Shown piece by piece: positions 18,110 through 32,055 of a stretch of DNA of 34,442 nt. Origin of the DNA: a virus; IMG/VR virus record IMGVR_UViG_3300046642_000155, positions 1 to 34,442 of that record, one strand, 5' to 3'. The position numbers and the translations under genes were made by a program. The number at the start of each line of letters is the position of its first letter. The stretch's first letter is position 1. The notes under the pieces were generated by a model that did no database searches, had not been told where the DNA came from, and worked only from the letters and a program-made list of their open reading frames with translations.

Positions 18110-18131
18110 CACATACGGAAATCCGTAGGTG
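18110..18131 (+). promoter_or_regulatory. Operator candidate: palindromic repeat copy 6
   Basis: This copy of the 22-bp palindrome (core TACGGAAATCCGTA, outer arms CACA/AGGTG) ends 2 bp before the -35 box of the promoter at 18134. The same spacing recurs at 31526. This geometry would let a bound protein block RNA polymerase. Confidence 0.75.
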
Positions 18132-18133
18132 AG

Positions 18134-18163
18134 TTGACAGTCACAAGATCACGACGCTAGTCT
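18134..18163 (+). promoter_or_regulatory. Early promoter, sigma70-like
   Basis: TTGACA (18134-18139) and TAGTCT (18158-18163) are spaced by 18 bp. The -35 is a perfect match to the vegetative consensus and the -10 is a fair one. The predicted start is about 18170, giving a leader that contains CAACGAAGGGGCGGGG just before the GTG at 18202. The leader is similar to the one at 31595. No other plus-strand site in the window matches vegetative consensus as well. Confidence 0.75.
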
Positions 18164-18201
18164 CTGCGGTGTAAGTTCAAAACAACGAAGGGGCGGGGAC
18201 A

Positions 18202-19437
18202 GTGAACGTAGTCAGCGTGAACGGCGGCAAGGTCCACTCGATGATGTCGGGTACGGACGAGCACCCCTACCCGCTGTGTCGTGGCGGTGGCCAGAACCAA
18301 ATGGTCACTAAGTTCCGCGCTGTCGACGCCCCGCTGTCCTGCAAGACCTGCCTGACCTACGAAGAGCGGCGCAACGCTGCTGCCGCGAAGACTGAGGGAG
18401 AGACCACCATGACCGCCCGTAACGACGTCACCACCGAGCAGGGTCAGACTGTGATCGAGCAGATTGACGCCAACATCGAGCGCGCCTCTTCGCTGGTGGA
18501 AGCTGAGAATCACGAAGGGCTTGACGAGCTGTACAAGGAGACTGAGGCGCTCGTCTCGTCGCTCAGCGGTAAGGGCTCCATCGCCATCAAAAAGGAGAAG
18601 CGCGAGGCTTGGACTGCTGCCGCCATGGCTGCCCCGAAGCCGAAGGCGGAAGTCAGGAAGGTGACGGTTGGTCAGATCGTAGAGAAGACCTGGGACCAGT
18701 ACGAAGGCGTTGAGGAACTCGTCTCGCTGGGCGCCGAGAAGATCGGCGAAGGCGTCACCGCTCACGTCAAAATCTCGCACCTGGCGAAGGACGTTGCAGC
18801 CATCGTCTTTGACATGTGGACCAGGATTCCGAACAAGGAAGGTGCCCCGGACCTGATGGGCGCCAGCGACCCCGCCAAGAAGGCTTCCGGCGAGATGCTG
18901 AAGCGCGCCGGTAACGGCTTCGAAGACAACTACGACAACAAGCAGGCTCTGAAGAGGCTGACGCGCTCCGTGCAGGATCAGCGCAGTGACGTTCGGGCCG
19001 AGTGGCTGCGCTCGCTGGACGAAGACACGGAGGCTGGCGCCGCTCGCCGCGAGATCATGGCGAAGGTGCTCGAAGGCAAGCCGGAAGACCAGCCTGCTTC
19101 CGCTTGGGTGGCGGACAAGTACGGCGCTTCGCTTCTGGGTATGACCGAGCGCAAGCGTCTGGAGTACGCCGCGAAGGTGGCTGGCAAGGAACTTGAGTCC
19201 GGCGCTGGCGCTGGCGGGGGCGAAGGCGAAGGCGAAGGCGAAGGAGAGGGCGAAGGCTCCGACGAGTCCACGCCGGATGAGCGCGTGACCAACGTCGCCA
19301 AGAGGCTTATCAAGGACATCGGCATGGTCACCCCGGATGACTTCGAGAAGAGCAGCGAGGAGACGAAGGAAGCCGTCCGTACCCAGCTCGAAGAGGCCAT
19401 CAAGGCTCTGCGCGCGATGGTCAGCGCCACCCTGTAG
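18202..19437 (+). CDS. First early protein: zinc-ribbon N-terminus, charged helical body
   Basis: The 411-residue protein starts at GTG 18202 behind GAAGGGGCGGGG. Residues 1-50 contain His12, Cys26, Cys47 and Cys50, a zinc-binding pattern often seen in small actinophage proteins. An in-frame ATG at 18409 has its own GGGAGAG site, so a shorter product lacking the zinc region is possible. The body is helical and acidic with VTVGQIVEKTWDQYEGVEEL and many Lys/Glu, then a Gly-Glu repeat (nt 19218-19259) as a linker and a C-terminal helical tail. I do not recognise the family. As the first gene after the strongest early promoter it may be a regulator, host-takeover or DNA-binding protein. Confidence 0.85.
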   Translation: MNVVSVNGGKVHSMMSGTDEHPYPLCRGGGQNQMVTKFRAVDAPLSCKTCLTYEERRNAAAAKTEGETTMTARNDVTTEQGQTVIEQIDANIERASSLVEAENHEGLDELYKETEALVSSLSGKGSIAIKKEKREAWTAAAMAAPKPKAEVRKVTVGQIVEKTWDQYEGVEELVSLGAEKIGEGVTAHVKISHLAKDVAAIVFDMWTRIPNKEGAPDLMGASDPAKKASGEMLKRAGNGFEDNYDNKQALKRLTRSVQDQRSDVRAEWLRSLDEDTEAGAARREIMAKVLEGKPEDQPASAWVADKYGASLLGMTERKRLEYAAKVAGKELESGAGAGGGEGEGEGEGEGEGSDESTPDERVTNVAKRLIKDIGMVTPDDFEKSSEETKEAVRTQLEEAIKALRAMVSATL

Positions 19438-19449
19438 GTAAACCGACGG

Positions 19450-19480
19450 GGGGCCCTGGGTGACGAGCCTGGGGCCCCTT
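19450..19480 (+). terminator. Hairpin after first early gene
   Basis: GGGGCCCTGGG (19450-19460) pairs with CCTGGGGCCCC (19468-19478) with one mismatch and one G-T pair, loop TGACGAG. Only two T residues follow, so it may be a weak terminator or an attenuator before the next small gene. Confidence 0.5.
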
Positions 19481-19496
19481 CCCACTTGGAGGAACC

Positions 19497-19703
19497 ATGA
19501 GCGACGAACACCAGAACTGCAAGGGATGCACGGACGAGCGCGCGCCGGAACCTGGGCCAGTCTCGTTCGCAGTGCAGCCGCAGACTGAAAGCCCGGCCGA
19601 TCTCTCGTTCTGCTGCGCGCGGCATCTGCCGATCGTGGTTGAGGCGTACTCGCGTCAAGGCTGGCTGTCGCTGGTCCGTGCGCTGCGCCCTCGGAACACG
19701 TAA
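19497..19703 (+). CDS. Small Cys-rich protein
   Basis: The 68-residue protein starts at ATG 19497 after TTGGAGGAA, a strong site. Cys8/Cys11 (CKGC) and Cys39/Cys40 with His43 (FCCARH) could bind one zinc ion. The C-terminus is helical with a hydrophobic face (WLSLVRALR). Not recognised; a small zinc-finger DNA- or RNA-binding protein is possible. The next 300 bp have no gene but a structured regulatory region. Confidence 0.65.
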   Translation: MSDEHQNCKGCTDERAPEPGPVSFAVQPQTESPADLSFCCARHLPIVVEAYSRQGWLSLVRALRPRNT

Positions 19704-19948
19704 GCGGCCCTCTCGCAGCCTTCCAGCCCCATCGGACCCCCGTGGACCGGTGGGGCTCTTTCATGCCCGCAGACAGGCGCACAGAGCTTCCGGCCGCAGG
19801 CGTGACGCACAGCGCGAAGGCTGACAGCGCAAGAACCCCTCTGACCAGCAAGAAGTGATGAAGTGACGATTTAGACCCAACTTCCACAATCACATAAGAA
19901 GTTCTATAGGGATTCTGAGACTGCCCTTCAAACCGTCACTTCGTCACC

Positions 19949-19970
19949 AGGGCCGCTCACCCGATCTACC
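19949..19970 (+). promoter_or_regulatory. TCACCCGAT motif copy 2, upstream of exonuclease
   Basis: Copy of the 22-bp motif, with GGGCCGCTCACCCGATCTAC at its centre. It ends 32 nt before the GTG at 20003, the same distance as two other copies have from their genes. Confidence 0.6.
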
Positions 19971-19996
19971 CCTCTCGACAGACCGAACGAGAGGGG
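19969..19996 (+). promoter_or_regulatory. Hairpin covering the exonuclease ribosome-binding site
   Basis: CCCCTCTCG (19969-19977) and CGAGAGGGG (19988-19996) are perfectly complementary over 9 bp with a 10-nt loop. The AGAGGGG half is the only Shine-Dalgarno candidate for GTG 20003, so in the folded mRNA it would be hidden. Confidence 0.6.
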
Positions 19997-20002
19997 CCCA
20001 CA

Positions 20003-20845
20003 GTGGCAATCCGCACCATTCAGCGAAGCGGCTCGCGCTTCTATTTCAATGAGTCGTTTCCGGATATCAAGTATCCGGGCGTGACTTCCGTCGTTGGCAT
20101 GCTGCCTAAGCCGTTCCTGGCTTTCTGGCAAGCGAAGATGGTTGCCGAACTCGCCGTTGACTCGCTGGACTTCATACAGCAGATGGCGGACCGGGACCGG
20201 GACGGCGCCGTGCAGTACCTGAAGGGCGCTGCCAACCGATACACCAAGGTTCGCGCCAACGTTGGCAGCGACGCACACGACCTGTTCGAGCGCATGATCA
20301 GGGGCCAGCACATCGGGCGCGTTCACCCTGACATGGTTCCGTATCAGCGCCACTTCGCTGCGTTCCTTGACGCCGTGCAGCCTGAGCTTGTGCGTGCTGA
20401 GGATGTGGCCTGGTCCGACACGCACGAGTACGCGGGCAGCTTTGATGGCATCCTGCGCCTGAGGCTGGACGAGCACGGGAAGCCTGATCCCGCTGGTGAG
20501 CCTGCCCTTGTGGTCGCTGACTGGAAGACCAGTAAGAGCACCTATCCGGACGTTGCGTTGCAGATGAGCGCGTACGCGAACGCTGACAAGATCATTGCGC
20601 CGGATGGCACCGAGACACCCATGCCTGAGTTTGATGGCGCCCTGGTGCTGCACATCACTGAGGACCAGGCGTCTTTCAAGCCTGTGCGCATCGCCGCTGA
20701 GAATGGCAAGCCTGATGTGTTCGCACACTTCCTGCACCTGCGGGACACGTTCGAGTGGGTTCAGCGCGTGAGTAAGACCGTGCTGGGCGACCCCATCTGG
20801 TCGACCGATGGCGCGCTGATCACTGGTACTCAGCGACGCGCCTAG
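20003..20845 (+). CDS. RecB/Cas4-like PD-(D/E)XK exonuclease
   Basis: The 280-residue protein has the nuclease motifs in order: a helix with His92 (SDAHDLFER), the GSFDG box with Asp148, the VVADWKTSKS box with Asp173 and Lys175, and the QMSAYA box with Gln187 and Tyr191. This arrangement is that of the RecB/Cas4 family used by many phages for recombination or DNA degradation. Start is GTG 20003 behind AGAGGGG. In phiC31-type phages a nuclease precedes the directionality factor gene, and the same order is seen here. It probably acts in phage DNA recombination or replication. Confidence 0.82.
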   Translation: MAIRTIQRSGSRFYFNESFPDIKYPGVTSVVGMLPKPFLAFWQAKMVAELAVDSLDFIQQMADRDRDGAVQYLKGAANRYTKVRANVGSDAHDLFERMIRGQHIGRVHPDMVPYQRHFAAFLDAVQPELVRAEDVAWSDTHEYAGSFDGILRLRLDEHGKPDPAGEPALVVADWKTSKSTYPDVALQMSAYANADKIIAPDGTETPMPEFDGALVLHITEDQASFKPVRIAAENGKPDVFAHFLHLRDTFEWVQRVSKTVLGDPIWSTDGALITGTQRRA

Positions 20846-20846
20846 C

Positions 20847-20868
20847 GGGGCCGGTCACCCGATCTACA
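20847..20868 (+). promoter_or_regulatory. TCACCCGAT motif copy 3, upstream of directionality factor gene
   Basis: A close copy of the 22-bp motif starts two bases after the exonuclease stop. The leader to the next gene is longer (135 nt) than at the other sites. The phrase CAACGAAGGGG that follows it is the same leader phrase seen after the two sigma70-like promoters. Confidence 0.6.
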
Positions 20869-20879
20869 ACCAACGAAGG

Positions 20880-20956
20880 GGAACGGGCGGCAGGAACGGG
20901 CAGCAGATGCGCACAGCGCACGTGGACATGCCCGCAACCCCGCCCGTTCCCGTTCC
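20880..20956 (+). repeat. Repeated GGAACGGGC arms in leader
   Basis: GGAACGGGCGG (20880-20890) and AGGAACGGG (20892-20900) can pair with CCGCCCGTTCC (20940-20950) or CCCGTTCC (20949-20956). The resulting stem closes a loop of about 50 nt. The two pairings are mutually exclusive in part, so the leader could switch between folds. Function unknown. Confidence 0.45.
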
Positions 20957-21003
20957 ACATTCACAGCCTGCGCGCGAGCGCTTCACAGATACGGCGGTAC
21001 CCC

Positions 21004-21732
21004 ATGGCCCTGCGCATTTTCGACACCGACCCTGACGCCAAGCCTAAGAAGCGCGAGGCTAAGCGCGAGTACGAGCGCCCCGTGTTTCAGTTCCGGTCCG
21101 GCATGCAGGTGCGCAACCCTGACACTCGCCGCATGGAGCCTGTCAGCCTCTCCAACTGGCGTGTGCTGACCGACGATCCGACAGTGGCCGAGGGTATCGC
21201 CGAGCTTCTCGGGGGCAGCGCTGAGGAGTATGACCCGACGAAGGCCATGCACCTGCACGTCATGACTGAGTCGCCCTCTGTGGAGATCGTCATCAACGGC
21301 AGCAAGGCCATTGAGGACAAGCTCATCTTGTGGGGCATTGGTGGCCCTGCCCATGAGTGCGATGGCGAGTATTCGCTACTGCCGGATGACAAGGGCGAGC
21401 CGTGTGGTTGCCCGCGCACCATGGCCGAGCGTAAGGACCTTGCGAAGCGCCGTCCGCCCAAGGGTCCGTCCCCTTCGATCAACGTCACTTTCCGTCTCGC
21501 TGGCCACGGTTACGAGCTTGGTACCGGGAAGCTCATCGCAACCGCCTGGTCCCTGGCCGAGGTGATCCACGAAGTCAAGGACGCTCTAGACCAGGTCGAC
21601 GGAGAAGCCCTCTGCCGCCTGGAACTTGAGCACGTCCAGTACACCAACAAGGCTGGCATTGACGTGAGTTACCGCAAGCCGGTTATCACGGTGCTCGGTT
21701 CCTACAACGATGCCATCGGCGAAGAGCGGTAA
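21004..21732 (+). CDS. Recombination directionality factor, phiC31 gp3-like
   Basis: The 242-residue protein resembles the actinophage directionality-factor family of which phiC31 gp3 (about 244 residues) is the studied member: an N-terminal FDTDPDAKPKKREAK segment, YERPVFQFRSGMQVRN, RVLTDDPTVAEGIAELLGG, a Cys-rich middle (Cys119, Cys134, Cys136 in ECDG...GEPCGCP), then PSINVTFRLAG and a GKLIATAWSLAEVI block. In phiC31 this protein binds the serine integrase and turns it from integration to excision. No integrase is in this window, so a serine integrase is expected outside it. Start is ATG 21004; the ribosome-binding site is poor (GGCGG). Confidence 0.78.
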   Translation: MALRIFDTDPDAKPKKREAKREYERPVFQFRSGMQVRNPDTRRMEPVSLSNWRVLTDDPTVAEGIAELLGGSAEEYDPTKAMHLHVMTESPSVEIVINGSKAIEDKLILWGIGGPAHECDGEYSLLPDDKGEPCGCPRTMAERKDLAKRRPPKGPSPSINVTFRLAGHGYELGTGKLIATAWSLAEVIHEVKDALDQVDGEALCRLELEHVQYTNKAGIDVSYRKPVITVLGSYNDAIGEER

Positions 21733-21736
21733 TCAG

Positions 21737-21910
21737 ATGCCCACTCCCGAACAGTGGGCGCACGCGCTGAAGGGTGCCTCTGACGAGCAAGTTGGGGGCC
21801 CCCTGTGGCGCTACCCGCCCGACGCTATTCCCGCTGTGATGCACGAGCGCAGGAAGCGCAACATTCTTCAGAACGACCCTGAGCCTTCGGGCGATTCCGA
21901 GTACAGCTAA
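21737..21910 (+). CDS. Small hydrophilic protein
   Basis: The 57-residue protein is taken from ATG 21737, with AGAGCGG 8 nt ahead; an in-frame ATG at 21710 inside the previous gene would add 9 residues. It starts PTPEQWAHALKGASDEQVGG, then a helical basic part (AVMHERRKRNIL) and an acidic end. Not recognised. It lies between the directionality factor and another small gene, in the same transcript. Confidence 0.6.
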   Translation: MPTPEQWAHALKGASDEQVGGPLWRYPPDAIPAVMHERRKRNILQNDPEPSGDSEYS

Positions 21911-21929
21911 CACAAGGAGAGTGCAACGC

Positions 21930-22166
21930 ATGGCCCTTTACGAAGTTATCCGCGTGGACGAGCCGAAGCCTGGCGAGTTTGTTTCCGCCTTCGTCATCGC
22001 TGGCGGCACTGCGCAGGCTCGCGCTGCTGTGGCGCACCTGAAGGGTGTGACCAAGAAGAACGTGCTGGCTGACAAGGTCGACACCACGAAGCGCGTTCAG
22101 CTCATCAGCGTGTATGAGGACGAGCGCGAGGCACGCGAGGCTGAGCACACCATCCCGCTGTACTAA
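21930..22166 (+). CDS. Small alpha/beta protein
   Basis: The 78-residue protein starts at ATG 21930 with AAGGAGA upstream. It shows a beta-alpha-beta pattern: YEVIRVDEPKPGEFVSAFVI, a helix AQARAAVAHLKGV, then a strand VQLISVYEDERE. This is a common shape for small phage accessory proteins, and I do not recognise a family. A hairpin follows at 22174-22208. Confidence 0.65.
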   Translation: MALYEVIRVDEPKPGEFVSAFVIAGGTAQARAAVAHLKGVTKKNVLADKVDTTKRVQLISVYEDEREAREAEHTIPLY

Positions 22167-22173
22167 GCCAATT

Positions 22174-22208
22174 GCCCGGAGCTTCCGCACTGCGCGGGGG
22201 TTCCGGGC
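22174..22208 (+). terminator. Hairpin after small protein gene
   Basis: GCCCGGAGCTTCCGCAC and GCGCGGGGGTTCCGGGC pair across the region when G-U pairs are allowed. There is no T-tract, so this may be a weak terminator or an mRNA-stabilising hairpin. Confidence 0.45.
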
Positions 22209-22291
22209 CTTAGGCGGTAGCGAAGCAAGGAGAGAGGCTGCGCCGAATGGCTTTCATCTTTACCCCCGAACGTGACCCGAGGAGAGAAAAC

Positions 22292-22603
22292 GTGGCTGCT
22301 TTCAAGGCTGGCGACAAAGTCAAGTACCGCAACATGACCATGCCCGCTGAGATTCTGTCCGGCCCGCACCAGTCCCCTGGGGCCGCGCGTTACCTGATTC
22401 GCAAGGCCGATGGGAATGTGTCGCTGGCCCCTGTCACCTACCTTGAGCGGATCGTTCCGCGCCTTGACCAGGTGGCGGGAACGCTGGCCATGGTCCTTTA
22501 CGGGCGCTCGTTCGTGTCGCTGCCCCCGCACACTCGGTTGCAGGTGATGCAGGGTGCTTCCCGCGCAATCGCCATCGCTGACAACACGAAGGGCCAGGCG
22601 TAA
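22292..22603 (+). CDS. Small protein with KOW/SH3-like start
   Basis: The start chosen is GTG 22292, with GAGGAGAG 7 nt ahead; an ATG at 22247 in the same frame is possible and would add 15 residues. The 103-residue product begins AAFKAGDKVKYRNMTMPAEI, a pattern of small SH3-like or KOW-like barrels. A beta segment with RYLIRKADGNVSLAPVTYLE follows, then a helical C-terminal part (HTRLQVMQGASRAIAIAD). Not recognised. The next gene follows after 3 nt. Confidence 0.6.
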   Translation: MAAFKAGDKVKYRNMTMPAEILSGPHQSPGAARYLIRKADGNVSLAPVTYLERIVPRLDQVAGTLAMVLYGRSFVSLPPHTRLQVMQGASRAIAIADNTKGQA

Positions 22604-22606
22604 CAC

Positions 22607-22906
22607 ATGGGCAAGCGGGGAGTAGTCACCGACTATGCAGGCGAAGAGCTTTACGCGGGCGACCTGATCAGCTTTGCCACGCGCCATGGCAACCGGGTCC
22701 GCATGACTGACGCCATCGTCCGGGACGTCACCACGAAGAACGTTGGGGGCCGTCTGCTGCCCACGCTGGTTGTCGAGCCGACCGGTACTGACTCCGGTTG
22801 GGGACTTGGCGCCCGCAAGACGCTGCGACCCGTGGAGATCAGCGCGGAGCATGTGCGCCTGGTCACCCCGGATTTCCTCAACCAAGGGAGCGTGCGGAAT
22901 GTTTGA
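22607..22906 (+). CDS. Small beta-rich protein
   Basis: The 99-residue protein starts at ATG 22607, three nt after the previous stop. It is strand-rich (GDLISFATRHGNRVRMTDAI; LLPTLVVEPTGTDSG) and could again be a small barrel, like its upstream neighbour. Not recognised. The C-terminus overlaps the next gene by 8 bp. Confidence 0.6.
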   Translation: MGKRGVVTDYAGEELYAGDLISFATRHGNRVRMTDAIVRDVTTKNVGGRLLPTLVVEPTGTDSGWGLGARKTLRPVEISAEHVRLVTPDFLNQGSVRNV

Positions 22907-23045: not shown

Positions 23046-23052
23046 CGAATTG

Positions 23053-23090: not shown

Positions 23091-23124
23091 GCCGTAGGTA
23101 CCCACCTACGGATATCCGGAGGTG
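23091..23124 (+). promoter_or_regulatory. Palindromic repeat copy 7 with an extra half-site and built-in SD
   Basis: The 22-bp palindrome is 23103-23124 with core TACGGATATCCGGA; the right arm deviates to GGAGGTG, which is a good ribosome-binding site for GTG 23129. Upstream, CCGTAGGT (about 23092-23099) is an inverted copy of ACCTACGG (23104-23111), so three half-sites lie side by side. Confidence 0.65.
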
Positions 23125-23128
23125 ACCC

Positions 23129-23807: not shown

Positions 23808-23835
23808 TTCAGCGAACCCCGAGAAAGGGCAGAAA

Positions 23836-26280
23836 ATGCAGTTCGTAGAGTTCCTCGCACGGTTCGCTGAGGTGACGGAGCAAGAGGACGGGGGTTACCT
23901 CGCAGTGTGTCCGGCGCACAGTGACTCCCGTCCTAGCCTGCGTATTTGGCGGGGTGATGACTACAAGGTTCGGCTCACCTGCCGCGCAGGCTGTGACACC
24001 AACCTGGTCCGCGTTGCCGCTGGTCTTCAGTGGGCCGATCTGTTCGGCGTTGAGGGCGATGGCGCCACGGTTCCGAAAGAGCGCCCTGCCATGGTTGGCA
24101 TAGCGCACATCGCTGGCCTTCAGAGCTTCGTTGACATTGCTGGCCAGCATCTACGGGGCAGCGTGACAGCCAATGCCGATCGCGCTGTGAAGTACGCCGC
24201 TGACAGGTTCGGGCTCACTCCGTCCATGTTCGAAGATCTTGAGCTTGGACTCAGCGACGACGAGACAGGCGCCACCTTCCCTTACCTGAGCCGCGCGTTC
24301 CTGGCGTTCCCGCGCCTGACTGTCCCCCTGTGTGACTTTGACGGCACGGTGCGCGGTTTGCAGGGGCGTGACATCAGCGGCGAGTGTCCGGGGCGCTGGG
24401 TATCGCTGAGCAACCCGCAGGGCCACCGCTGGGCCCCGTACGGCGTGTTTCGCGGGCAGGGTGGCTATGGGGTCACGCTCATCACTGAGGGGCCGGGAGA
24501 CGGGCTCACAGCGGTTGCCGTTGGCTACGACGTGGTCATGGTCCGGGGCGCTGCCCTGGTGTCCTCCCCTGAGTTGCTGGCCGAGATTGCCGAAGGTGTG
24601 CGCGGCACACAGGTAATCGCCTGCGGTGACAAGGACAAGTCGGGGCAGGACTTCAACCAGAAGTTGGCCGATGGACTCAAGGCCCATGGCATCGACGTTT
24701 ACGCGCTGGCGCTTCCCGCTAGCCTGCCCAGCAAGGGTGACCTTACTGACTGGCGCGCGCTGGACCCTGCCGCCTTCGCGGGAGCGCTGCACAGCGCCGT
24801 CAAGGCTGCTCGCCCCGTTGCTAAGCCTGAAGAGGCACGGCGCGAGGCAGTCAGTGTTGAGCTGAACGAAGCTACCGGCGCCGACACAGTCAGCCGTGAC
24901 CAGGGCGCCGAAGCCGGGCGCATCCTGGCGAGCCTGATTGAGCGCTACGGCGAGTCTGACGCCATGAACGCTCACGCGCTGGTGGCATGGACCGACGGAC
25001 GTATCAAGTACGCGCCTGGTCTTGGCTTCTACGTGTGGAACGGCCGAACGTGGGAGCGCTCGGAAGTGAAGGTGCGTCAGGAGATACACCGCATGGGCGC
25101 TGCCCTGGTGCTCGCTGGCAAGCTTGCTGAGTCCAAGGGTTTCACCATGACCACGCGGATTGATGCGCTGATGACTGAGCTTCGCAGCGTGCCCAGCGTG
25201 TACGTGGCGCCGCAGGACTTTGACGACCGACCGGAACTGTTGAGTTTCCGGAATGGCACCGTTGAGCTGCGCACGGGTCGCCTGCGTCCGCATGCGAAGC
25301 AAGACATGCTGACGTACTGCTTGGCGCTGGACTACGACGAGCACGCGCAGTGTCCGCGCTGGGAAACGTTCTTGCGGGAGATCATGCCTGGCATGCCTGA
25401 GATGCCTGCCTATCTGCAACGCCTCATTGGCTACGGCGCAACCGGGTCCACAGATGAGCAGTGCTTCGCTGTGTTGTGGGGCAAGGGCGCCAACGGTAAA
25501 TCTGTCCTTACGGAGACGCTGGCAAGCGTGTTCGGCAACATAACGAAAACGACCCCCTTTGCAACCTTCGAAGAAAAGCAGTCCGGCGGCATTCCGAACG
25601 ATATTGCTGCGTTGCGGGGTGCGCGCCTGGTCATGGCTTCTGAGGGCGAGTCGGGCAAGCCGATGAGCGAAGCGGTGCTGAAGCGGGTCACCGGAAAGGA
25701 CATGGTCAGCGCACGATTCCTCCGTCAGGAATTCTTCGAGTTCCGGCCATCCTTCCTGCTGATGCTGGCGACCAACCACAAGCCGAAGTTTCGCGGGCAG
25801 GATGACGGGCTGTGGCGCCGAGTCAAGATGATTCCTTTCAAGCGCTTCTTTGCGCCCCATGAGCGGGATTACGACCTTGACAGCAAGCTTCGCGCGGAGG
25901 CGCAGGGTATTGCGGCGTGGGCGGTGCGGGGCGCTGTCGAGTGGTTCGCCAACGGCTTGCAGGACCCTGCCGTCATCACAGCAGCGAGCCGGGAGTATCG
26001 CGAGACGTCCGATGCGCTGGTTGGGTTCTTCCCTGGGGTGTACGAGCGTGACGAAGCTAGCTCAATCCCTGGGGCGGACGCGTACAACGCCTACCGCGAG
26101 TGGTGCGAGGCTGAGGGACTCCCGTCCAAAGAGATCTGGACCCGTCGCAGCTTCTATGACGCGATGGAAGAGCGGCAGGTGAGCCGTAAGAAGACCAACA
26201 AGGGGATCACTCTGGTTGGCATCCGGACCGCTCACCCGATACAGGCAAAGCAGGGTCCGGGCATCTTCGCCCAGGACTGA
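23836..26280 (+). CDS. Primase-helicase
   Basis: The 814-residue protein joins three activities. Residues 20-60 form a CHC2-like zinc finger (Cys25, His28, Cys49, Cys53). Residues 213-282 are a TOPRIM-like domain: ITEGPGDGLTA with Glu218, and ACGDKDKSG with Asp265 and Asp267. Residues about 420-780 are D5-type helicase: a D5_N part with PELLSFRNGTVELRTGRLRP, the Walker A box GKGANGKS (549-556), MASEGESGKPMSEAVLKRVT, and the ATNHKPKF motif of SF3 helicases. It probably primes and unwinds DNA at the replication fork, as in phiC31-type phages. Start ATG 23836 is behind GAGAAAGGG. Confidence 0.92.
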   Translation: MQFVEFLARFAEVTEQEDGGYLAVCPAHSDSRPSLRIWRGDDYKVRLTCRAGCDTNLVRVAAGLQWADLFGVEGDGATVPKERPAMVGIAHIAGLQSFVDIAGQHLRGSVTANADRAVKYAADRFGLTPSMFEDLELGLSDDETGATFPYLSRAFLAFPRLTVPLCDFDGTVRGLQGRDISGECPGRWVSLSNPQGHRWAPYGVFRGQGGYGVTLITEGPGDGLTAVAVGYDVVMVRGAALVSSPELLAEIAEGVRGTQVIACGDKDKSGQDFNQKLADGLKAHGIDVYALALPASLPSKGDLTDWRALDPAAFAGALHSAVKAARPVAKPEEARREAVSVELNEATGADTVSRDQGAEAGRILASLIERYGESDAMNAHALVAWTDGRIKYAPGLGFYVWNGRTWERSEVKVRQEIHRMGAALVLAGKLAESKGFTMTTRIDALMTELRSVPSVYVAPQDFDDRPELLSFRNGTVELRTGRLRPHAKQDMLTYCLALDYDEHAQCPRWETFLREIMPGMPEMPAYLQRLIGYGATGSTDEQCFAVLWGKGANGKSVLTETLASVFGNITKTTPFATFEEKQSGGIPNDIAALRGARLVMASEGESGKPMSEAVLKRVTGKDMVSARFLRQEFFEFRPSFLLMLATNHKPKFRGQDDGLWRRVKMIPFKRFFAPHERDYDLDSKLRAEAQGIAAWAVRGAVEWFANGLQDPAVITAASREYRETSDALVGFFPGVYERDEASSIPGADAYNAYREWCEAEGLPSKEIWTRRSFYDAMEERQVSRKKTNKGITLVGIRTAHPIQAKQGPGIFAQD
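26224..26245 (+). promoter_or_regulatory. TCACCCGAT motif copy 5, inside primase 3' end
   Basis: A weaker copy (CGGACCGCTCACCCGATACA plus GG) lies inside the coding region, 110 nt upstream of the DNA polymerase start. Its core matches fully, and it could supply an extra start point for the polymerase transcript. Confidence 0.45.
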
Positions 26281-26296: not shown

Positions 26297-26330
26297 AGGG
26301 GTCACCTACGGATATCCGTACGTGGCCCCT
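26297..26330 (+). repeat. Palindromic repeat copy 8 in a hairpin
   Basis: The 22-bp unit is 26303-26324 with the perfect core TACGGATATCCGTA. AAGGGGT and GGCCCCTT extend the dyad as in the late-region copies, and TTT follows, so it could also serve as a terminator of the primase transcript. Confidence 0.75.
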
Positions 26331-26355
26331 TTGCGCTGTGCAGAGAGGCTACGCA

Positions 26356-28212
26356 GTGAAGGTCTACCCGTACGAGATTGCTGGCGAGCTGGTTACCGTC
26401 AAGGTTCCCGAGACGCGCGAGGATCTAAGCGAGTTCCAAGAGTGGTTTATGCGCGCCAACGCTGCGGGACCCATCGCGCTGGACACTGAAACCACGGGCC
26501 TTGACATCTACTCCCCCGGATATCGCCTGCGCACGGTTCAGTTCGGCGATCGGCGCACAGCGTGGGTCATCCTGTACGAGCTGGGTGGGCCCTTCGTGAC
26601 TGCTGCGCTGGGGGCCCTGCGTCGCGGGAACCGCTTCCAGATTCACAACGCGCCCTTTGATTGGGCGGTCATTGACCGACATGCAGGCGTCAGCATTGAG
26701 TCACTCGCCCCGCGCACTATCGACACCAGGCTGAAAGCCGGTCTGGTTGACCCGCGCCAGCCGCAGGAAGGTGGGCGAGGAACGGCCCTGAAGCCTCTCA
26801 GCGCGTACTACGTCGACCCCTCAGCGCCGGACACACAGGGAGACCTGACGGCAGTCTTCCGCTCGCTGAAACTGACCAAGGCAACGGGCTGGGCCGGTAT
26901 TCCGCTGGACCACCCCACTTACCTTCTGTACGCGGGTCTCGATGTGCTGCTCACGGCTCGCCTTGACATCGAGTTGGACCGTGAACTTGCAGCGCTCGAC
27001 GTCCGTCCGCGCCTGGTCCAGTACGAGCACGAGATAGCGCGTATCTGCGCCGTCATGCAGCGCAAGGGCATGGTGCTTGATGTCGAGTACACGCGCACCC
27101 TTGACGAGTCGCTACAGGCGGAGGCAGCAGAGTTCGAGTTGCGGGCCCAGCGCTACGGCGTGACCAACGTCAACGCGCCTGCACAGCTTCGCGAGGCACT
27201 CGCCGGTATGGGTGAAGAGTGGGGCGCTGACGAGATCACAGCAACCGGTGCGCTCAAGGTCGATAAGGCCGTGTTGCATCGCTTCGCTGATCTTGACTTC
27301 CAGACCGGTAAGCGACTCAATGCACGCACACCTAACCCGCTGGCCGAAGCCATCATTCGCAGCAAGCGGGCCGGTAAGTGGCGCAGCGCGTACACGCAAA
27401 CGTTTCTCGACACCATGGACGCCGATGGCAGGGTGCATGCCTTCGTAAACAGCATGCAGGCTCGCACGGGTCGCATGTCCATCACTCGTCCGGCGCTGCA
27501 AACCCTGCCTTCCGGTGACGCCATGATCCGGCGCGCACTGCTCGCTGAGGAAGGGCATGTGATCGTCTCCACTGACTTCGCTGCCGTTGAGCTTCGAGTG
27601 TTGGCAGCGCTGGGGGATGTCAAGAACATGAAGCGTGCCATCACTGCTGGCGAGGATCTGCACTCGTTCACGGCGCGCATGGTGTTTGGCGAAGACTTCA
27701 CGCCGAAGCATCGCAAGATCTCTAAGGGGATTGCCTTTGGCAAGGTCTATGGGGGTGGCGCTGCCACGATCAGCCGACAGACCGGCGCTCCGATTGAGGA
27801 TGTGCGCCGAGCCATGGCCGCGTATGACCGTGTGTACCCCGAGATCAGGCGCATGTCGAATGCCTGGCAGCGCGAGGCATACGAGACAGGCATGGTGCAC
27901 GTGTCCGTCACTGGGCGCAGGCTTCCGCTGGACCGGGACCGTACTTACGCCGTCGTGAACTACGGGGTGCAGAGCGCAGCGCGTGACTGCCTGGGACAGA
28001 GCCTGATCAACCTTGAAGAGGCTGGACTCTTGGAGTACATGCGCCTGCCGATTCATGACGAAGTGCTGTGCTCCGTGCCTGAGGCGGAAGCCAGCGACTA
28101 CGCGCGCGAGATTGAGCGCTGCATGACGTTCGACCTGTACGGGGTGCCGATCGAAGCTGAGGCGGAGATAGGGAAGCGCTCTTGGGGGTCGCTGTACGGA
28201 GCTGACATCTAG
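26356..28212 (+). CDS. DNA polymerase, family A with 3'-5' exonuclease domain
   Basis: The chosen start GTG 26356 has AGAGAGG 8 nt ahead; an in-frame GTG at 26338 has no site. The 618-residue protein has the proofreading motif LDTETTGLD (Asp43, Glu45), then NRFQIHNAPFDWAVIDRH and the YAGLDVLLTARLDIELDREL block. The polymerase part contains motif A (STDFAAVELRVLA, Asp407), motif B (HRKISKGIAFGKVYGGGAA) and motif C (IHDEV, Asp568/Glu569). It is a compact polymerase I-type enzyme of phages. It should be the main phage replicase with the primase-helicase just upstream. Confidence 0.93.
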   Translation: MKVYPYEIAGELVTVKVPETREDLSEFQEWFMRANAAGPIALDTETTGLDIYSPGYRLRTVQFGDRRTAWVILYELGGPFVTAALGALRRGNRFQIHNAPFDWAVIDRHAGVSIESLAPRTIDTRLKAGLVDPRQPQEGGRGTALKPLSAYYVDPSAPDTQGDLTAVFRSLKLTKATGWAGIPLDHPTYLLYAGLDVLLTARLDIELDRELAALDVRPRLVQYEHEIARICAVMQRKGMVLDVEYTRTLDESLQAEAAEFELRAQRYGVTNVNAPAQLREALAGMGEEWGADEITATGALKVDKAVLHRFADLDFQTGKRLNARTPNPLAEAIIRSKRAGKWRSAYTQTFLDTMDADGRVHAFVNSMQARTGRMSITRPALQTLPSGDAMIRRALLAEEGHVIVSTDFAAVELRVLAALGDVKNMKRAITAGEDLHSFTARMVFGEDFTPKHRKISKGIAFGKVYGGGAATISRQTGAPIEDVRRAMAAYDRVYPEIRRMSNAWQREAYETGMVHVSVTGRRLPLDRDRTYAVVNYGVQSAARDCLGQSLINLEEAGLLEYMRLPIHDEVLCSVPEAEASDYAREIERCMTFDLYGVPIEAEAEIGKRSWGSLYGADI

Positions 28213-28239
28213 TCACTACTCCGCTGAGTGAGATACGGG

Positions 28240-28261
28240 CACCTACACATCACCGTAGGTG
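28240..28261 (+). repeat. Diverged palindromic repeat copy 9
   Basis: Outer arms CACCTAC and GTAGGTG form a perfect 7-bp inverted pair at the normal 22-bp span, but the centre (ACATCACC) no longer matches the family core. Confidence 0.55.
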
Positions 28262-28430
28262 TCCGTGTCCTACCCGTGACCTGATGTTCACCTTGGAAGA
28301 TCACTCCTTAGATTCGAAACGCCTGGCATATGCCAGAGCGGGCCGCCCGAATGAATCGAAGGGCGGATGTGCGGTTACGCCTTCGAATCCCATACAACGA
28401 TGCCCGCTAGTAGCTGGTCTAACTGGTCAT

Positions 28431-28475
28431 CACCTACGGAGACGCGTTGACCACCTACGGAAAAACGCGTTTAGT
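28431..28475 (+). promoter_or_regulatory. Promoter candidate with tandem half-operators
   Basis: TTGACC (28447-28452) and TTTAGT (28470-28475) are spaced by 17 bp. CACCTACGGA occurs twice as a direct repeat, before the -35 and inside the spacer, so binding of one half-site protein would cover the promoter. The sigma-like gene starts about 175 nt downstream. Confidence 0.5.
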
Positions 28476-28605
28476 TCACACCGCAACGACGAGCGATCCG
28501 GCCGGACGCTCGAAGTCGCAGACACCCCGCCCACAAGGGGGTCAGTCTGCTGATTCGCGCTGCCCAGACCCGCTCTGACCTGCGCTTTTCCGGCCGATTC
28601 CCCTT

Positions 28606-28627
28606 GGGGCCCTTCACCCGATCCACA
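28606..28627 (+). promoter_or_regulatory. TCACCCGAT motif copy 6, upstream of sigma-like gene
   Basis: GGGGCCCTTCACCCGATCCA plus CA. It ends 25 nt ahead of GTG 28653, which has a perfect AGGAGG site. GATCC/GGATC inside and after it can form a small hairpin. Confidence 0.6.
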
Positions 28628-28652
28628 TGGATCGAACCCCAGGAGGAACCCC

Positions 28653-29753
28653 GTGCTCACTGTTCAGACCATCCTTGCTGCGCAGGCCAACGACACCGAC
28701 GCTGTTCGCGAGGTTTGCAGCGCGACCGAAGCCACCATCAACCGTCTCGCTGGCAAGGCCGCTCAGCGCATGGGGCAGGGCCAGTACAGCCACTACCGGG
28801 ACGAGTTTGCCCAGGTTGGTCGACTCGCCATGTGGGAGTGCCTGAGCCGCTTCAACGGTGACAACGAAGCTGAGTTCTTCGGGTACCTGATCAAGACTGT
28901 TGAGTCCGCCCTGTACGACGCTGTGCGCAGCGAGAAGAACGGCGGGGCGGGCATAGACAAGGACGCCGTTTGGATTTACTCGCAGATGATCGTCAAGGCC
29001 GATGGTGACCCGTTCAAGGCTGCGAAGCTTGCGCAGACTGAGCCGAAGGCTGGTGACCGACTCAGCGCGGACCGGGCGCACGCTGCGCGGCTGGCGTACC
29101 ACGGTGCCGTGTCGCTGGACGCTCCCACTGGCGACGATGACGCGACGCTTGCTGACTCGCTGGCTGCTCCGCAGAGTGAGACCCCGGACGCCATACACCC
29201 CAAGGTGGGCGCTGGTGCCGCTCTGGAAGCCCTGTCAGTGCTTCAGCGGTACTCGTCGGCGTACCAGGTGCTGAACGCCCTTCCTAGGGCCGCTGAGGAC
29301 GTTGACGCCATCGAAGACGCTGTGACGCTTCCCCGCGAGGCTTCCGAGCGCCGGTATGTGCTCGACGCCTGCGCCATCCTGCGTAGCTACGTGTCGACTG
29401 CCCAGGATGGTGACCTTGCCGAAGAGCTGCGGAACGAGTCCGACGAGCGAAGCGACGAGCGGGCCGAGAAGCACGCGAAGGTGAACGCTGCCGTTGACTC
29501 GATCGCTGGTCTTCGCGGGGATGTGCTGCGCTACAGCTTCGGCCTGGGTGGCTTCCAGTGCTACGGGCACGGCAACGATGGCGATGCGGCCGGACTCGCT
29601 GAGCACCTGGGCAAGACTCAGGTTCAGATCACTGACTCTCGCCGTAAGGCGTACGCGTCCTTCGCGAAGAACTATGCGGCGATGCACAGCGCGGAGCGTG
29701 CCGCAGACCTCATGGCCGGTTTCGCTGCGACTCGTCGTGTGAAGCGTGCCTAA
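28653..29753 (+). CDS. Sigma-70-like RNA polymerase factor
   Basis: The 366-residue protein starts at GTG 28653 behind AGGAGG (28641-28646). Residues about 45-95 match sigma region 2: YRDEFAQVGRLAMWECLSRF, then EFFGYLIKTVESALYDAVRS. Residues about 285-345 match region 4 with a helix-turn-helix shape: LRGDVLRYSFGLGGF, AAGLAEHLGKTQVQITDSRR. The middle is an acidic, less conserved linker. It could direct host RNA polymerase to phage promoters. An unusual point is the long linker between the two regions. Family assignment is by pattern, and its promoters are unknown. Confidence 0.7.
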   Translation: MLTVQTILAAQANDTDAVREVCSATEATINRLAGKAAQRMGQGQYSHYRDEFAQVGRLAMWECLSRFNGDNEAEFFGYLIKTVESALYDAVRSEKNGGAGIDKDAVWIYSQMIVKADGDPFKAAKLAQTEPKAGDRLSADRAHAARLAYHGAVSLDAPTGDDDATLADSLAAPQSETPDAIHPKVGAGAALEALSVLQRYSSAYQVLNALPRAAEDVDAIEDAVTLPREASERRYVLDACAILRSYVSTAQDGDLAEELRNESDERSDERAEKHAKVNAAVDSIAGLRGDVLRYSFGLGGFQCYGHGNDGDAAGLAEHLGKTQVQITDSRRKAYASFAKNYAAMHSAERAADLMAGFAATRRVKRA

Positions 29754-30030
29754 GTTGGCCCCCCGTATGGCTGCTCTGTACATGGCCTCTCGTCGCCAGC
29801 GCAGAGCAGCCCCATACAGGCGCGCGGAGGTGTTCGCCCGATGGGGCCATGCCTGCTGCTACTGCGACGCGCCTGCCCAGCACCTAGACCACGTCCAGCC
29901 GCTTTCACGTAAGGGCCGTGACGTCCCTTCCAACGTGGTCCCTGCCTGCGCTGACTGCAATCTCGATAAGGCCGCTCTGACGCTGGCCGAGTGGGCGCAG
30001 ACATGGGGCCGGTCACCCGATACACCCTGA
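29746..30030 (+). CDS. HNH endonuclease 2
   Basis: The 94-residue protein is a short paralogue of HNH nuclease 1: CCYCDAPAQHLDHVQPLSRK, NVVPACADCNLDKAALTLAE and then W-A-x-T-W. It lacks the N-terminal zinc ribbon and keeps a basic lead (MASRRQRRAAPYRRAEVF). Start is uncertain: GTG 29746 overlaps the sigma-like gene, while ATG 29767 and 29782 are alternatives. Its last codons (GRSPDTP) are written in the TCACCCGAT motif itself. Confidence 0.82.
   Translation: MPKLAPRMAALYMASRRQRRAAPYRRAEVFARWGHACCYCDAPAQHLDHVQPLSRKGRDVPSNVVPACADCNLDKAALTLAEWAQTWGRSPDTP
30005..30026 (+). promoter_or_regulatory. TCACCCGAT motif copy 7, at the end of HNH gene 2
   Basis: GGGGCCGGTCACCCGATACA plus CC, identical over 22 bp to copy 4. 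It overlaps the 3' end of the HNH 2 coding region and ends 32 nt before ATG 30059. Confidence 0.65.
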
Positions 30031-30058
30031 GCACAGAACGAGAAACGGAGAGAATCTC

Positions 30059-30223
30059 ATGACTTACAACCTGCGCAACGGTTACAGCGTGGTCACTCGC
30101 AAGGTCGACACGGGAACCGAATTCGAGACGCGTAACCGCAAGGGCGAGACGATTTCCTCGGTCATCCTGGGGTTCGTAGAAGCGCGTGAGCTGGTGCTGA
30201 ATCTCGCTAAGGGCGTTATCTGA
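30059..30223 (+). CDS. Small basic/strand-rich protein, 54 residues
   Basis: ATG 30059 follows ACGGAGAGAATC, a fair site. The product is MTYNLRNGYSVVTRKVDTGT and EFETRNRKGETISSVILGFV followed by a helix EARELVLNLAKGVI. Not recognised. Its stop overlaps the next start (TGATG), so they are coupled. Confidence 0.65.
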   Translation: MTYNLRNGYSVVTRKVDTGTEFETRNRKGETISSVILGFVEARELVLNLAKGVI

Positions 30224-30396
30224 TGGCACGCGTAGACGCTGCGATCAACGACCCCACCCCTACTGGTGGTGTAGCTGACAGGGCTGATGTGTATCGGGTG
30301 GCTACGGCGCTGATACGGCAGGCGGGATTGGTCAGCGACGCTACGCCGGAAGACCTGCTGATGTTGGCCCAGTTCCTCGCTGGCGACGATTTCTGA
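30223..30396 (+). CDS. Small acidic helical protein, 57 residues
   Basis: ATG 30223 overlaps the previous stop. The product is MARVDAAINDPTPTGGVADR, then ADVYRVATALIRQAGLVSDA and TPEDLLMLAQFLAGDDF. It is helical with an acidic end. Not recognised. The palindromic repeat copy 10 follows within 10 bp. Confidence 0.65.
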   Translation: MARVDAAINDPTPTGGVADRADVYRVATALIRQAGLVSDATPEDLLMLAQFLAGDDF

Positions 30397-30401
30397 GAGG
30401 G

Positions 30402-30433
30402 GGGTCACCTACGGATTTCCGTATGTGACCCCT
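30402..30433 (+). repeat. Palindromic repeat copy 10 in a hairpin
   Basis: The 22-bp unit is 30406-30427 (core TACGGATTTCCGTA, right arm ATGTG). GGGGT and ACCCC complete the dyad, so RNA could fold into an almost perfect stem. It lies between the small acidic gene and the winged-helix candidate. Confidence 0.75.
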
Positions 30434-30454
30434 CATTCATTGGATGGAGAGAAC

Positions 30455-30679
30455 ATGACGTACCGCACGGTGGGCGAGATCTCAGCCGCTGAGTTCCTGG
30501 CAGCGCTGACCACTACGCCTCAGCGACAGGCAGACATCTTCGTGAGTCTTGGCGGTGACCCCACGGACCACAATTACGCGCGCTTGTCCTTCCTGACTCA
30601 CAAGCTGCGCGCCAACGGCGTTGAGATTCTGACCGACCGCAGAAAGGGTGTGTGGCTTCCTTGCGCACAAGACGCGTGA
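30455..30679 (+). CDS. Small winged-helix-like protein
   Basis: The 74-residue protein starts at ATG 30455 behind TGGAGAGA. The pattern ISAAEFLAALTTTPQRQADI, YARLSFLTHKLRANGVEIL and RRKGVWLP resembles a winged-helix fold, with a recognition-helix-like stretch then a beta wing. It could be a DNA-binding regulator. It sits next to a palindromic repeat, which would be a natural target, but this is inference. Its end overlaps the lipoprotein start. Confidence 0.6.
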   Translation: MTYRTVGEISAAEFLAALTTTPQRQADIFVSLGGDPTDHNYARLSFLTHKLRANGVEILTDRRKGVWLPCAQDA

Positions 30680-30867
30680 TCCTGGCCATTGGCGCCATGC
30701 TGGTTGCGCTGCTCGGTCTGAGCGCGTGTGACCCTGGTCCCGAGTGCATCAAGGACCACACGGAAATCACGTACACAACCGTGATCGGCCCTAATGGCAG
30801 CGTGAGCCTTCAGCCGACTTTCACTGACGTGTGTGACGAGTACGCGAAGGAGACAGCGAAGCCGTGA
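30652..30867 (+). CDS. Small lipoprotein 1
   Basis: The 71-residue protein starts at GTG 30652 (AAAGGG upstream); a GTG at 30676 is possible but would lose the positive n-region. SLRTRRVILAIGAMLVALLG then LSAC is a classical lipobox signal, so Cys26 should be lipidated and the protein held on the outside of the cell membrane. The mature part is only about 45 residues with two more cysteines (GPECIKDH, FTDVCDEY), perhaps a disulfide. Phage-encoded lipoproteins can block superinfection, a possibility here. The stop overlaps the deaminase start. Confidence 0.7.
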   Translation: MASLRTRRVILAIGAMLVALLGLSACDPGPECIKDHTEITYTTVIGPNGSVSLQPTFTDVCDEYAKETAKP

Positions 30868-31271
30868 CCAAACGCCCTTCCTGGGACGCGTATTTCCTCG
30901 CTGGCGCCGAATGGGTGGCCACTCGTGCGGACTGTACGCGTTCCCAGGTGGGCGCAATTCTCGTCAATGCTCAGAACGAAGTGCGCGGCACTGGCTATAA
31001 CGGGGCGCCTGCGGGTGTGCCTGGTTGCCTTACGGCGAATGCCTGCCCGCGCGGAAAGCTGAGCGTCAGCGAATGCGCCCCTAATTCCGATTACAGCAAT
31101 TGCCTTGCGGACCACGCCGAGCGCAACGCCATTAGGCACACACCCGCTGGCGAATTGCGCGGAGCCACCCTGTACATAACCCGCGCGCCCTGCCTTGCAT
31201 GTTGGACGCTGATTCGAGCCAGCGGCATCAAGCGCGTAGTCACTCGCGAAGCGAAATGGAGACTCAATTGA
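30864..31271 (+). CDS. dCMP deaminase
   Basis: The 135-residue protein starts at GTG 30864 (GTGA overlap). It has the zinc-binding deaminase signature: HAERNAI (His84, Glu86) and APCLACWTLI (Cys110, Cys113). Upstream, the N-terminal part contains CTRSQVGAILVNAQNEVRGT and GYNGAPAGVPGC, typical of deoxycytidylate deaminases. It produces dUMP for dTTP synthesis. Together with the dNMP kinase it alters the nucleotide pool in favour of phage DNA. Confidence 0.88.
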   Translation: MTKRPSWDAYFLAGAEWVATRADCTRSQVGAILVNAQNEVRGTGYNGAPAGVPGCLTANACPRGKLSVSECAPNSDYSNCLADHAERNAIRHTPAGELRGATLYITRAPCLACWTLIRASGIKRVVTREAKWRLN

Positions 31272-31471
31272 TCTGGCGCGTACGCCTGTTGGTCGGATTC
31301 ATCGCAACTCTGCTGCTGCTGTCCCTCAGCGGGTGCGGGGCATCTGACCCGTACAACTCGGGTGATTCGGTCGTTGTCGTCCACCACCATCACAGCGTGA
31401 TTCATCACACAGTGGTTCACCACGTGGTCACGCACAAGGTTCGCCGCTCGCTGTCGCTACACAAGCGCTGA
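31268..31471 (+). CDS. Small lipoprotein 2 with His-rich tail
   Basis: The start is taken as TTG 31268 (TTGA overlap with the deaminase stop), because GGAG is 6 nt ahead; ATG 31256 in the same frame lacks a site. IWRVRLLVGFIATLLLLSLS then GC is a lipobox signal. The 45-residue mature part is remarkable: VVVVHHHHSVIHHTVVHHVV then THKVRRSLSLHK, with at least ten histidines alternating with beta-branched residues. It could bind metal ions outside the cell. Not recognised. A terminator follows. Confidence 0.65.
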   Translation: MIWRVRLLVGFIATLLLLSLSGCGASDPYNSGDSVVVVHHHHSVIHHTVVHHVVTHKVRRSLSLHKR

Positions 31472-31478
31472 CCTGCAC

Positions 31479-31515
31479 AAACCCCCGGTAGGGCTTCGGC
31501 TCTGTCGGGGGTTCC
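31479..31515 (+). terminator. Terminator before second operator-promoter
   Basis: AACCCCCGGTAGGGC and GCTCTGTCGGGGGTT pair across a TTCG loop with two mismatches. Only a weak T-rich end follows. It separates the lipoprotein gene from the operator at 31526. Confidence 0.65.
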
Positions 31516-31525
31516 TGCGTTGGGT

Positions 31526-31547
31526 CACATACGGATTTCCGTAGGTG
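31526..31547 (+). promoter_or_regulatory. Operator candidate: palindromic repeat copy 11
   Basis: The copy has core TACGGATTTCCGTA with outer arms CACA/AGGTG, the same arm variants as copy 6. It ends 2 bp before the -35 of the promoter at 31550, exactly as copy 6 does. Confidence 0.75.
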
Positions 31548-31549
31548 AC

Positions 31550-31579
31550 TTGCGCGAGCCCTTCGCTGCCCCCTAGATT
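31550..31579 (+). promoter_or_regulatory. Second early promoter, sigma70-like
   Basis: TTGCGC (31550-31555) and TAGATT (31574-31579) are spaced by 18 bp, the same as the promoter at 18134. The leader contains a run of ACAACAACAACAACG followed by AAGGGGCGGG, the shared leader phrase. It probably drives 31615 onward. Confidence 0.65.
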
Positions 31580-31614
31580 GTGACCACAACAACAACAACG
31601 AAGGGGCGGGCGGG

Positions 31615-32055
31615 ATGTACATCGAGGTCAAGCAGCTTTGCGGCAAGTTCTTCTCTCAGGTGCGCAACAGCTACGCGGACGGCGACAACATCCTGTTCGA
31701 GTCCCCGGACTACCTGACTGAGGCCATGGCGCTCGCGGATGCGAAGTGCTGGATGGCCTTTCACGGAGAGGCAAAGCCCATGGACAAGGTGACGGTTGAC
31801 CCCAGCGAGGTCTACACAGCGCGCGGGGGTGGCGCATCGCTGCTTGAGTACAGGGATATCTCGGCCGAGTATGTGGCGTGGCACGTGGCTGCCGCTTATG
31901 AGTCCGGGCTTACCGTGGAAATCCGCACCAGCACAGTAGAGGGCACGAAGTACATCATGGTCAGCAATGGCAAGGGCGCATGCTACGGCCGGTATTACAT
32001 CGGGGCCGTCTTCGCAGACTGGGCCCTCAACAAGCGCTGGAACGAAACCGCCTAA
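31615..32055 (+). CDS. Orphan alpha/beta protein, first gene behind second operator
   Basis: The 146-residue protein starts at ATG 31615 behind GAAGGGGCGGGCGGG. It looks globular: YIEVKQLCGKFFSQVRNSYA, a helix TEAMALADAKCWMAF, and later VEIRTSTVEGTKYIMVSNGK with a final helix. Four to five aromatic-rich positions suggest a stable core. I do not recognise the family. As the first gene of an operator-controlled unit it may serve early takeover or lysogeny-related functions. Confidence 0.7.
   Translation: MYIEVKQLCGKFFSQVRNSYADGDNILFESPDYLTEAMALADAKCWMAFHGEAKPMDKVTVDPSEVYTARGGGASLLEYRDISAEYVAWHVAAAYESGLTVEIRTSTVEGTKYIMVSNGKGACYGRYYIGAVFADWALNKRWNETA

Follow-up and report, generated by a model that had tools for sequence, protein, structure and literature searches.

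The phage phiC31 (Lomovskayavirus) is the basis of much Streptomyces genetics. To our knowledge, little has been described in the literature surveyed on the control by its repressor of genes other than the repressor gene c itself. The phiC31 record X91149 marks two of its sites, CIR7 and CIR8, as a repressor-binding "conserved inverted repeat" (CIR). Here we describe a 34,442-base stretch of viral DNA, IMG/VR record IMGVR_UViG_3300046642_000155 (the window, by which we mean the whole of this stretch), in which two palindromes of the CIR kind stand directly before promoter-like sequences with identical geometry, one at 18110 (module A) and one at 31526 (module B). Within the known phiC31 system, this two-module arrangement is a variant of c/CIR control. 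It is likely that the modules are insulated units with promoters that would respond to the repressor C, module A making C and module B expressing a cargo gene of the lysogenic state.

The gene order and DNA of the window match those of the phiC31-like Streptomyces phages Rowa, phiC31, phiBT1 and TG1, and the window is probably a fragment of such a phage, with Rowa (Rowavirus) as the closest named relative. No integrase was seen within the 34,442 bases; a large serine integrase is present in all six of the close relatives (6/6), and we regard the phage group as temperate for that reason. The window and phiC31 have a homologous repressor gene in the same place, and the phiC31-type system has, as the window does, 10–16 palindromic operators between genes at the same junctions. 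In both, c and further genes come with a CIR, a TAGNNT -10-like box and a AACGAAGG leader, the same leader being found at phiC31 c and gp21, which are both CIR-linked. Operators within terminator-like hairpins also occur in the phiC31 group (phiC31 34782, phiBT1 27028). What sets the window apart is the sequence of the palindrome: the repeated palindrome of phiC31 and phiBT1 is CCTACTCACGTGAGTAGG, whereas the window core is CACMTACGGAWWTCCGTASGTG, and the two have in common only CCTAC and, in each half, an A located two bases from the centre. The window palindromes are the counterparts of the phiC31 CIRs, predicted operators of repressor c with a different sequence; given the changed core, we expect a system of this kind with another specificity, and the phage is probably not phiC31-immune.

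A more distant comparison is the repressor–stoperator system of the mycobacteriophages L5 and Bxb1, which has many repressor sites throughout the genome, few of them at promoters and most between genes (PMC9283540, PMC6550527). The window resembles it in this distribution of sites. However, the L5 sites are 13 bp long, asymmetric and bound by a monomer (PMC9283540, PMC6550527), while those of the window go with a different repressor family and many of them lie in hairpins; short asymmetric sites oriented with transcription, as in L5 (PMC9283540), are not what the window sites are, these being 22-bp palindromes.

The elements of the two modules, with the hairpins and genes on either side, are as follows (L-numbers denote relatives).

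18048-18086, + strand: hairpin of intrinsic-terminator type, then UUUUCUG (17-bp stem, -34.5 kcal/mol, z -3.6)
18110-18131, + strand: predicted CIR operator of module A, CACATACGGAAATCCGTAGGTG
18134-18139, + strand: -35 TTGACA of module A, after a 2-bp gap (AG); kept in L016, L021 and L041, TTGACT in L019
18158-18163, + strand: -10 TAGTCT of module A, spacer 18 bp; predicted transcription start at about 18170
18183-18197, + strand: leader CAACGAAGGGGCGGG (ribosome-binding region) of c, with the GTG start at 18202; also precedes phiC31 c
18202-19437, + strand: repressor gene c, 411 amino acids (aa) (PF25746, E 1.3e-84; phrog_19947, E 8e-89)
19450-19478, + strand: GC-rich hairpin 3' of c, a candidate terminator on moderate evidence (-29.4 kcal/mol, z -1.6)
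19725-19757, + strand: hairpin with a CUUUC tail, 3' of c and 5' of the replication region (-23.3 kcal/mol, z -3.4); also a match in the terminator scan
31480-31513, + strand: terminator-like hairpin between the dCMP (deoxycytidine monophosphate) deaminase transcript and module B (15-bp stem, z -4.0)
31526-31547, + strand: predicted CIR operator of module B, CACATACGGATTTCCGTAGGTG
31550-31555, + strand: -35 TTGCGC of module B, after a 2-bp gap (AC); identical in 8/8 B modules compared and at Rowa 19362
31574-31579, + strand: -10 TAGATT of module B, spacer 18 bp; predicted transcription start at about 31586
31596-31610, + strand: leader CAACGAAGGGGCGGG of module B, kept in relatives with ACAACAACA upstream; ATG start at 31615
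31615-32055, + strand: 146-aa gene, candidate lysogeny cargo, in a family with phiC31 gp32/ORF6 (by its N-terminal domain) and Rowa gp25

An earlier note on this DNA had described a palindrome 2 bp before the -35, an 18-bp spacer, these -10 boxes and a common leader, and every one of these elements was located in both modules. The combination is rare: TTG-N3-N18-TANNNT (equivalently TTG-N21-TANNNT) occurs just twice on the + strand of the window, at 18134 and 31550, each time starting exactly 2 bp past a palindrome, and is absent from the - strand, and the 15-base leader likewise has exactly two occurrences in the window. The CACA/AGGTG arm variant, also pointed out earlier, is present in both modules, with the qualification that a third copy at 30406 has CACA...AGGTG arms on the other strand and no promoter adjoining. 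A generic sigma-70 scan called neither promoter, because TAGTCT and TAGATT match the E. coli -10 poorly; both are, however, in keeping with Streptomyces vegetative promoters. The assignment of the two as putative promoters rests on their conservation in relatives.

This conservation is rigid. A scan of IMG/VR for the window-type operator, with the repressor loci and the window added, gave 69 distinct contexts; 14 of them were called promoter-type, and although gaps of 0–4 and spacers of 16–19 were permitted (20 combinations), all 14 have a gap of 2 and a spacer of 18. The spacer sequences themselves have diverged (46% identity within subtype A, 44% within subtype B and 35% between the two), while the -35 and the operator are conserved. 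Subtype A, with TTGACA or TTGACT, is always found 5' of c, and subtype B, with TTGCGC, 5' of small genes. Rowa, which has a different operator (its half is more often CACCTCCGAAAAT), contributes three further B-type modules with the 2/18 geometry and TTGCGN, at 19362, 35490 and 36416; as in the window, B-type modules are found there after the dCMP deaminase gene. The annotation of the Rowa record does not mention operators. The gap is 1, 4 or 7 in more distant relatives. Other relatives use other palindrome variants throughout their genomes, as would be expected of operators evolving together with their repressor.

The gene behind module A is c. PF25746 is the family "Streptomyces phage repressor protein c", and the window protein is 59% identical to the Rowa immunity repressor; the gene is located between the dNMP (deoxynucleoside monophosphate) kinase gene and the early region, with a gp52 homologue upstream and a gp1 homologue downstream. 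As a CIR, the -10-like box TAGGGT and an identical leader, AACGAAGGGGCGGG, also stand before c in phiC31, module A is taken to be the c promoter. It had been assigned earlier to replication genes. The first gene of the replication region starts at 20003, and since two hairpins (19450-19478 and 19725-19757) separate it from c, a replication unit behind module A is unsupported, though there may be some readthrough. As to C itself, the model of the repressor core is all helical, with a predicted local distance difference test score (pLDDT) of 83, and a structural search with it returned no informative match. The first 69 residues (18202-18408), with a Cys-x2-Cys motif, are optional, for some relatives start internally and others have another N-terminal piece; the sole start in L021 and L041 corresponds to 18409 in the window, a good internal start that is probably that of a short form of C.

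The gene behind module B, considered an orphan before, turns out to belong to a family that follows the same type of module in relatives. Six of the eight distinct B modules, the one in the window included, precede genes of this 146-aa family, and those at L035 4129 and L041 6899 stand before small genes outside it. In L021, L023–L025 and Rowa, the family gene is directly upstream of c, so that module B with its cargo comes first and the CIR promoter with c follows. In L035, L036 and L044, as in the window, the family gene does not adjoin c, and the window copy is in the right arm, after the dCMP deaminase gene. The Rowa homologue, gp25, is 33% identical and follows a TTGCGC module of the 2/18 geometry. 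The members have in common an N-terminal domain of about 50 aa, past which several diverge. Through this domain the family also takes in phiC31 gp32/ORF6, which matches the member in L037 with 51% identity over 39 aa (E 1.7e-9 in a small pairwise set; E 3e-3 against all phages). Upstream of phiC31 gp32 there are CIR8 and a TAGGCT -10-like box, and X91149 records the gene as "expressed in uninduced lysogens". On the analogy with gp32, our best reading of the 146-aa gene is a candidate cargo gene expressed in lysogeny.

Searches with the 146-aa protein itself gave little to go on. There was no significant match in Pfam, PHROGs or PADLOC, and a search of bacterial genomes with the gene alone found none; a family alignment did lead to a Streptomyces uncialis prophage in which the family gene is opposite the terminase gene, as in phiC31. 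The AlphaFold2 model (mean pLDDT 78, predicted template modelling score 0.51) has an N-terminal beta-beta-beta-alpha domain. Foldseek gave no match below E 0.1, and the structural resemblances seen were weak and gave no basis for assigning a function: HVO_2922 (Z 6.3, root-mean-square deviation 6.1 over 55 residues), the AP2 domain of WRINKLED1 (Z 5.0, deviation 2.7 over 51) and several double-stranded-RNA-binding domains (Z 4–5).

Both modules appear shielded from upstream transcription by strong hairpins. The hairpin at 18048-18086 lies between the dNMP kinase transcript and module A, and an equivalent precedes the c modules of L016, L019 and L041; for that at 31480-31513 (-32.5 kcal/mol for the folded stretch), relatives have one at the same place. 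A similar hairpin is found 5' of nearly all modules in relatives; the c module of L021 comes directly after the cargo gene.

Put together, the following mechanism can be proposed. A phiC31-type C made from 18202-19437 would bind the palindromes as its operators, and host RNA polymerase would start at about 18170 and 31586, from promoters of the host (sigma-70/HrdB-like) type. Because an operator lies 2 bp before each promoter and a terminator upstream of it, each module would be an insulated unit governed by RNA polymerase and by the occupancy of C, which, bound at about -60 to -39, would modulate both promoters. Unit A would yield C itself, that is, autoregulation; unit B would yield the 146-aa cargo protein at a level linked to C in the lysogen, so that its expression is most likely in lysogeny and in the period right after infection. 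The other CIRs, most of them in GC-rich intergenic hairpins, would serve as roadblocks or terminators silencing lytic genes in the lysogen. Of the two co-regulated early units put forward in the earlier note, two operator–promoter units under one repressor are retained, and co-regulation is probable since that repressor is common to both; the replication genes and the orphan genes are not, and "early" has become less likely. As for the sign of regulation, we think negative autoregulation, with C crowding the -35, likelier than activation, even though activation would explain the rigid spacing.

With up to 3 mismatches, TACGGAWWTCCGTA has 11 matches in the window, where 1.58 would be expected; none of 100 shuffles had more than 6. 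Ten of the 11 are genuine intergenic palindromes; the match at 13144 was dismissed as a chance match, and a degenerate copy at 28240 is additional. The copies not described above are listed here without a strand.

2230-2251: CIR with no linked promoter and little hairpin extension
3672-3693: CIR within a long intergenic hairpin (-41.9 kcal/mol, z -6.8)
7641-7662: CIR directly 5' of the tape-measure gene, extended hairpin absent
11063-11084: CIR within an intergenic hairpin (z -5.9)
14609-14630: CIR within an intergenic hairpin (z -3.0)
23103-23124: CIR with 1 mismatch between the gp4 and gp5 homologues, the junction of the phiC31 CIR at 24364
26303-26324: CIR within a hairpin in the gap between the primase and DNA polymerase genes (z -6.3), the junction of the phiC31 CIR at 27543
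28240-28261: degenerate CIR in a strong hairpin 3' of the DNA polymerase gene (z -5.8), the junction of the phiC31 CIR at 29548
30406-30427: CIR within a hairpin (z -5.6); its reverse complement is identical to the 18110 copy

Five window CIRs are at phiC31 CIR junctions: before c, between gp4 and gp5, between gp9a and gp11, after gp11 and after gp20. The gene content of the late region differs from that of phiC31. No operator was found inside the c gene of the window; phiC31 has one at 19773.

Could these palindromes be mainly hairpin elements of RNA or DNA, terminators or processing signals, with the promoters next to two of them a by-product? Long intergenic hairpins are indeed present at six window copies (3672, 11063, 14609, 26303, 28240 and 30406), and in the 55 non-promoter contexts 5.69 of 8 flanking positions can pair, compared with 4.75 when permuted (the maximum of 2000 permutations was 5.31); within single genomes of the phiC31 group, the hairpin extension is a trend only. 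However, the core is much more conserved than pairing would require, and related phages alter it in all copies together, as they would for a protein-binding site. The promoter copies, moreover, are upstream of their promoter, hence not transcribed from it, and they have no extra flank pairing (3.79 versus 4.46 permuted). We consider this explanation very unlikely, and think that the CIRs in hairpins are probably combined terminators and repressor roadblocks, with a role like that of the mycobacteriophage stoperators. It is also improbable, to our mind, that both modules are early lytic promoters for replication and right-arm genes, kept silent by the repressor in the lysogen and active after infection. 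Operators do adjoin the promoters, and a CIR after the dCMP deaminase gene is also found in phiC31, phiBT1, TG1 and Rowa; but the first gene of module A is c, which is necessarily on in lysogens, and hairpins stand between c and the replication genes. Because gp32, which shares the N-terminal domain and adjoins CIR8, is the family member annotated as expressed in uninduced lysogens, expression in lysogeny, with or without early expression, is more likely than early expression alone. A further alternative is that C at the CIR activates the adjoining promoter (positive autoregulation, like lambda cI at PRM), which would fix the 2-bp spacing, the hairpin CIRs still being roadblocks. In its favour, the 2-bp gap and 18-bp spacer are invariant in 14/14 contexts despite diverged spacers, with three more in Rowa, while the spacing varies in the phiC31 group, whose operators overlap the promoter. 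Yet an operator centre near -49.5 is not known as a classical activator position, the -35 of module A is already the consensus TTGACA, gaps of 1, 4 or 7 occur in more distant relatives, and common descent alone may account for the fixed spacing; we hold activation to be a rather unlikely explanation.

It is worth pointing out that several observations weigh against our preferred reading, of insulated units that would answer to C. The 14 contexts are related by descent and thus are not independent events. The window operator lies upstream of the -35 at a fixed 2/18 geometry, whereas that of phiC31 and phiBT1 overlaps or lies inside the promoter at variable spacing; the distance from operator centre to -10 is 37.5 bp in the window and about 10–22 bp at several phiC31 promoters, so the phiC31 mechanism of repression is not simply transferable. 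From an operator wholly upstream of the -35, C might have hardly any effect on initiation, or an activating one. The likeness to gp32/ORF6 is confined to the N-terminal domain of about 40–50 aa: the 146-aa protein matches it with 54% identity over a short stretch of 24 aa and the C-terminal parts differ. The phiC31 gene also neighbours the large terminase gene and is on the opposite strand, with an operator centre just 14 bp from the -10, and CIR8 is flanked by two divergent genes, either of which it could control. A more tentative extension of the preferred reading, which we find possible but doubtful, is that terminator, operator, promoter and leader make up a portable lysogeny cassette of rigid geometry. 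Phages of the phiC31 kind would copy it to various places in the genome so that swappable cargo (the gp32/146-aa family and other small genes) is expressed in concert with the repressor, and C at the fixed 2-bp spacing would contact RNA polymerase and tune or activate the promoter.

The modules offer a signature, CIR-NN-TTGNNN-N18-TANNNT followed by a AACGAAGG leader, with which genes probably expressed in the lysogen by phiC31-like prophages could be found. It points to one cargo family, phiC31 gp32 included by its N-terminal domain, and this family may affect the host or keep other phages out. The clade, in which the operator has changed jointly in sequence and in place relative to the promoter at about ten sites, would also be a natural case of diverging immunity specificity.

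There are a few minor observations. In L035, two B modules stand in tandem at 4129 and 4507, and both have a terminator and a cargo gene of their own, which suggests that such cassettes duplicate and accumulate. In the Streptomyces uncialis prophage (L088, about 6530), a perfect palindrome, GACCAGTGACTCACGTGAGTCACTGGTC, near the phiC31 CIR core, follows the gp32-like gene. The 81.7-kb record L018 (IMGVR_UViG_3300046690_000279) apparently consists of two phage genomes, related to each other and each about 40 kb long, with one integrase at 39472 and another at 80696; they may have been joined in assembly. A second repeat, GGGGCCGSTCACCCGATMYA, is present in the window on the + strand only, at 16733, 19955, 20853, 23792, 26230, 28612 and 30011, mostly 40–70 bp 5' of gene starts (those of the cas4-like exonuclease, primase and sigma factor among them); it is present in L019 and not in phiC31 or Rowa, and its copies are candidate phage-specific promoters. 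The window also has a gene for a phage sigma factor of the phiC31 gp12 type at 28653-29753 (phrog_15865, E 3.6e-105), and its product is a candidate activator of late or middle promoters.

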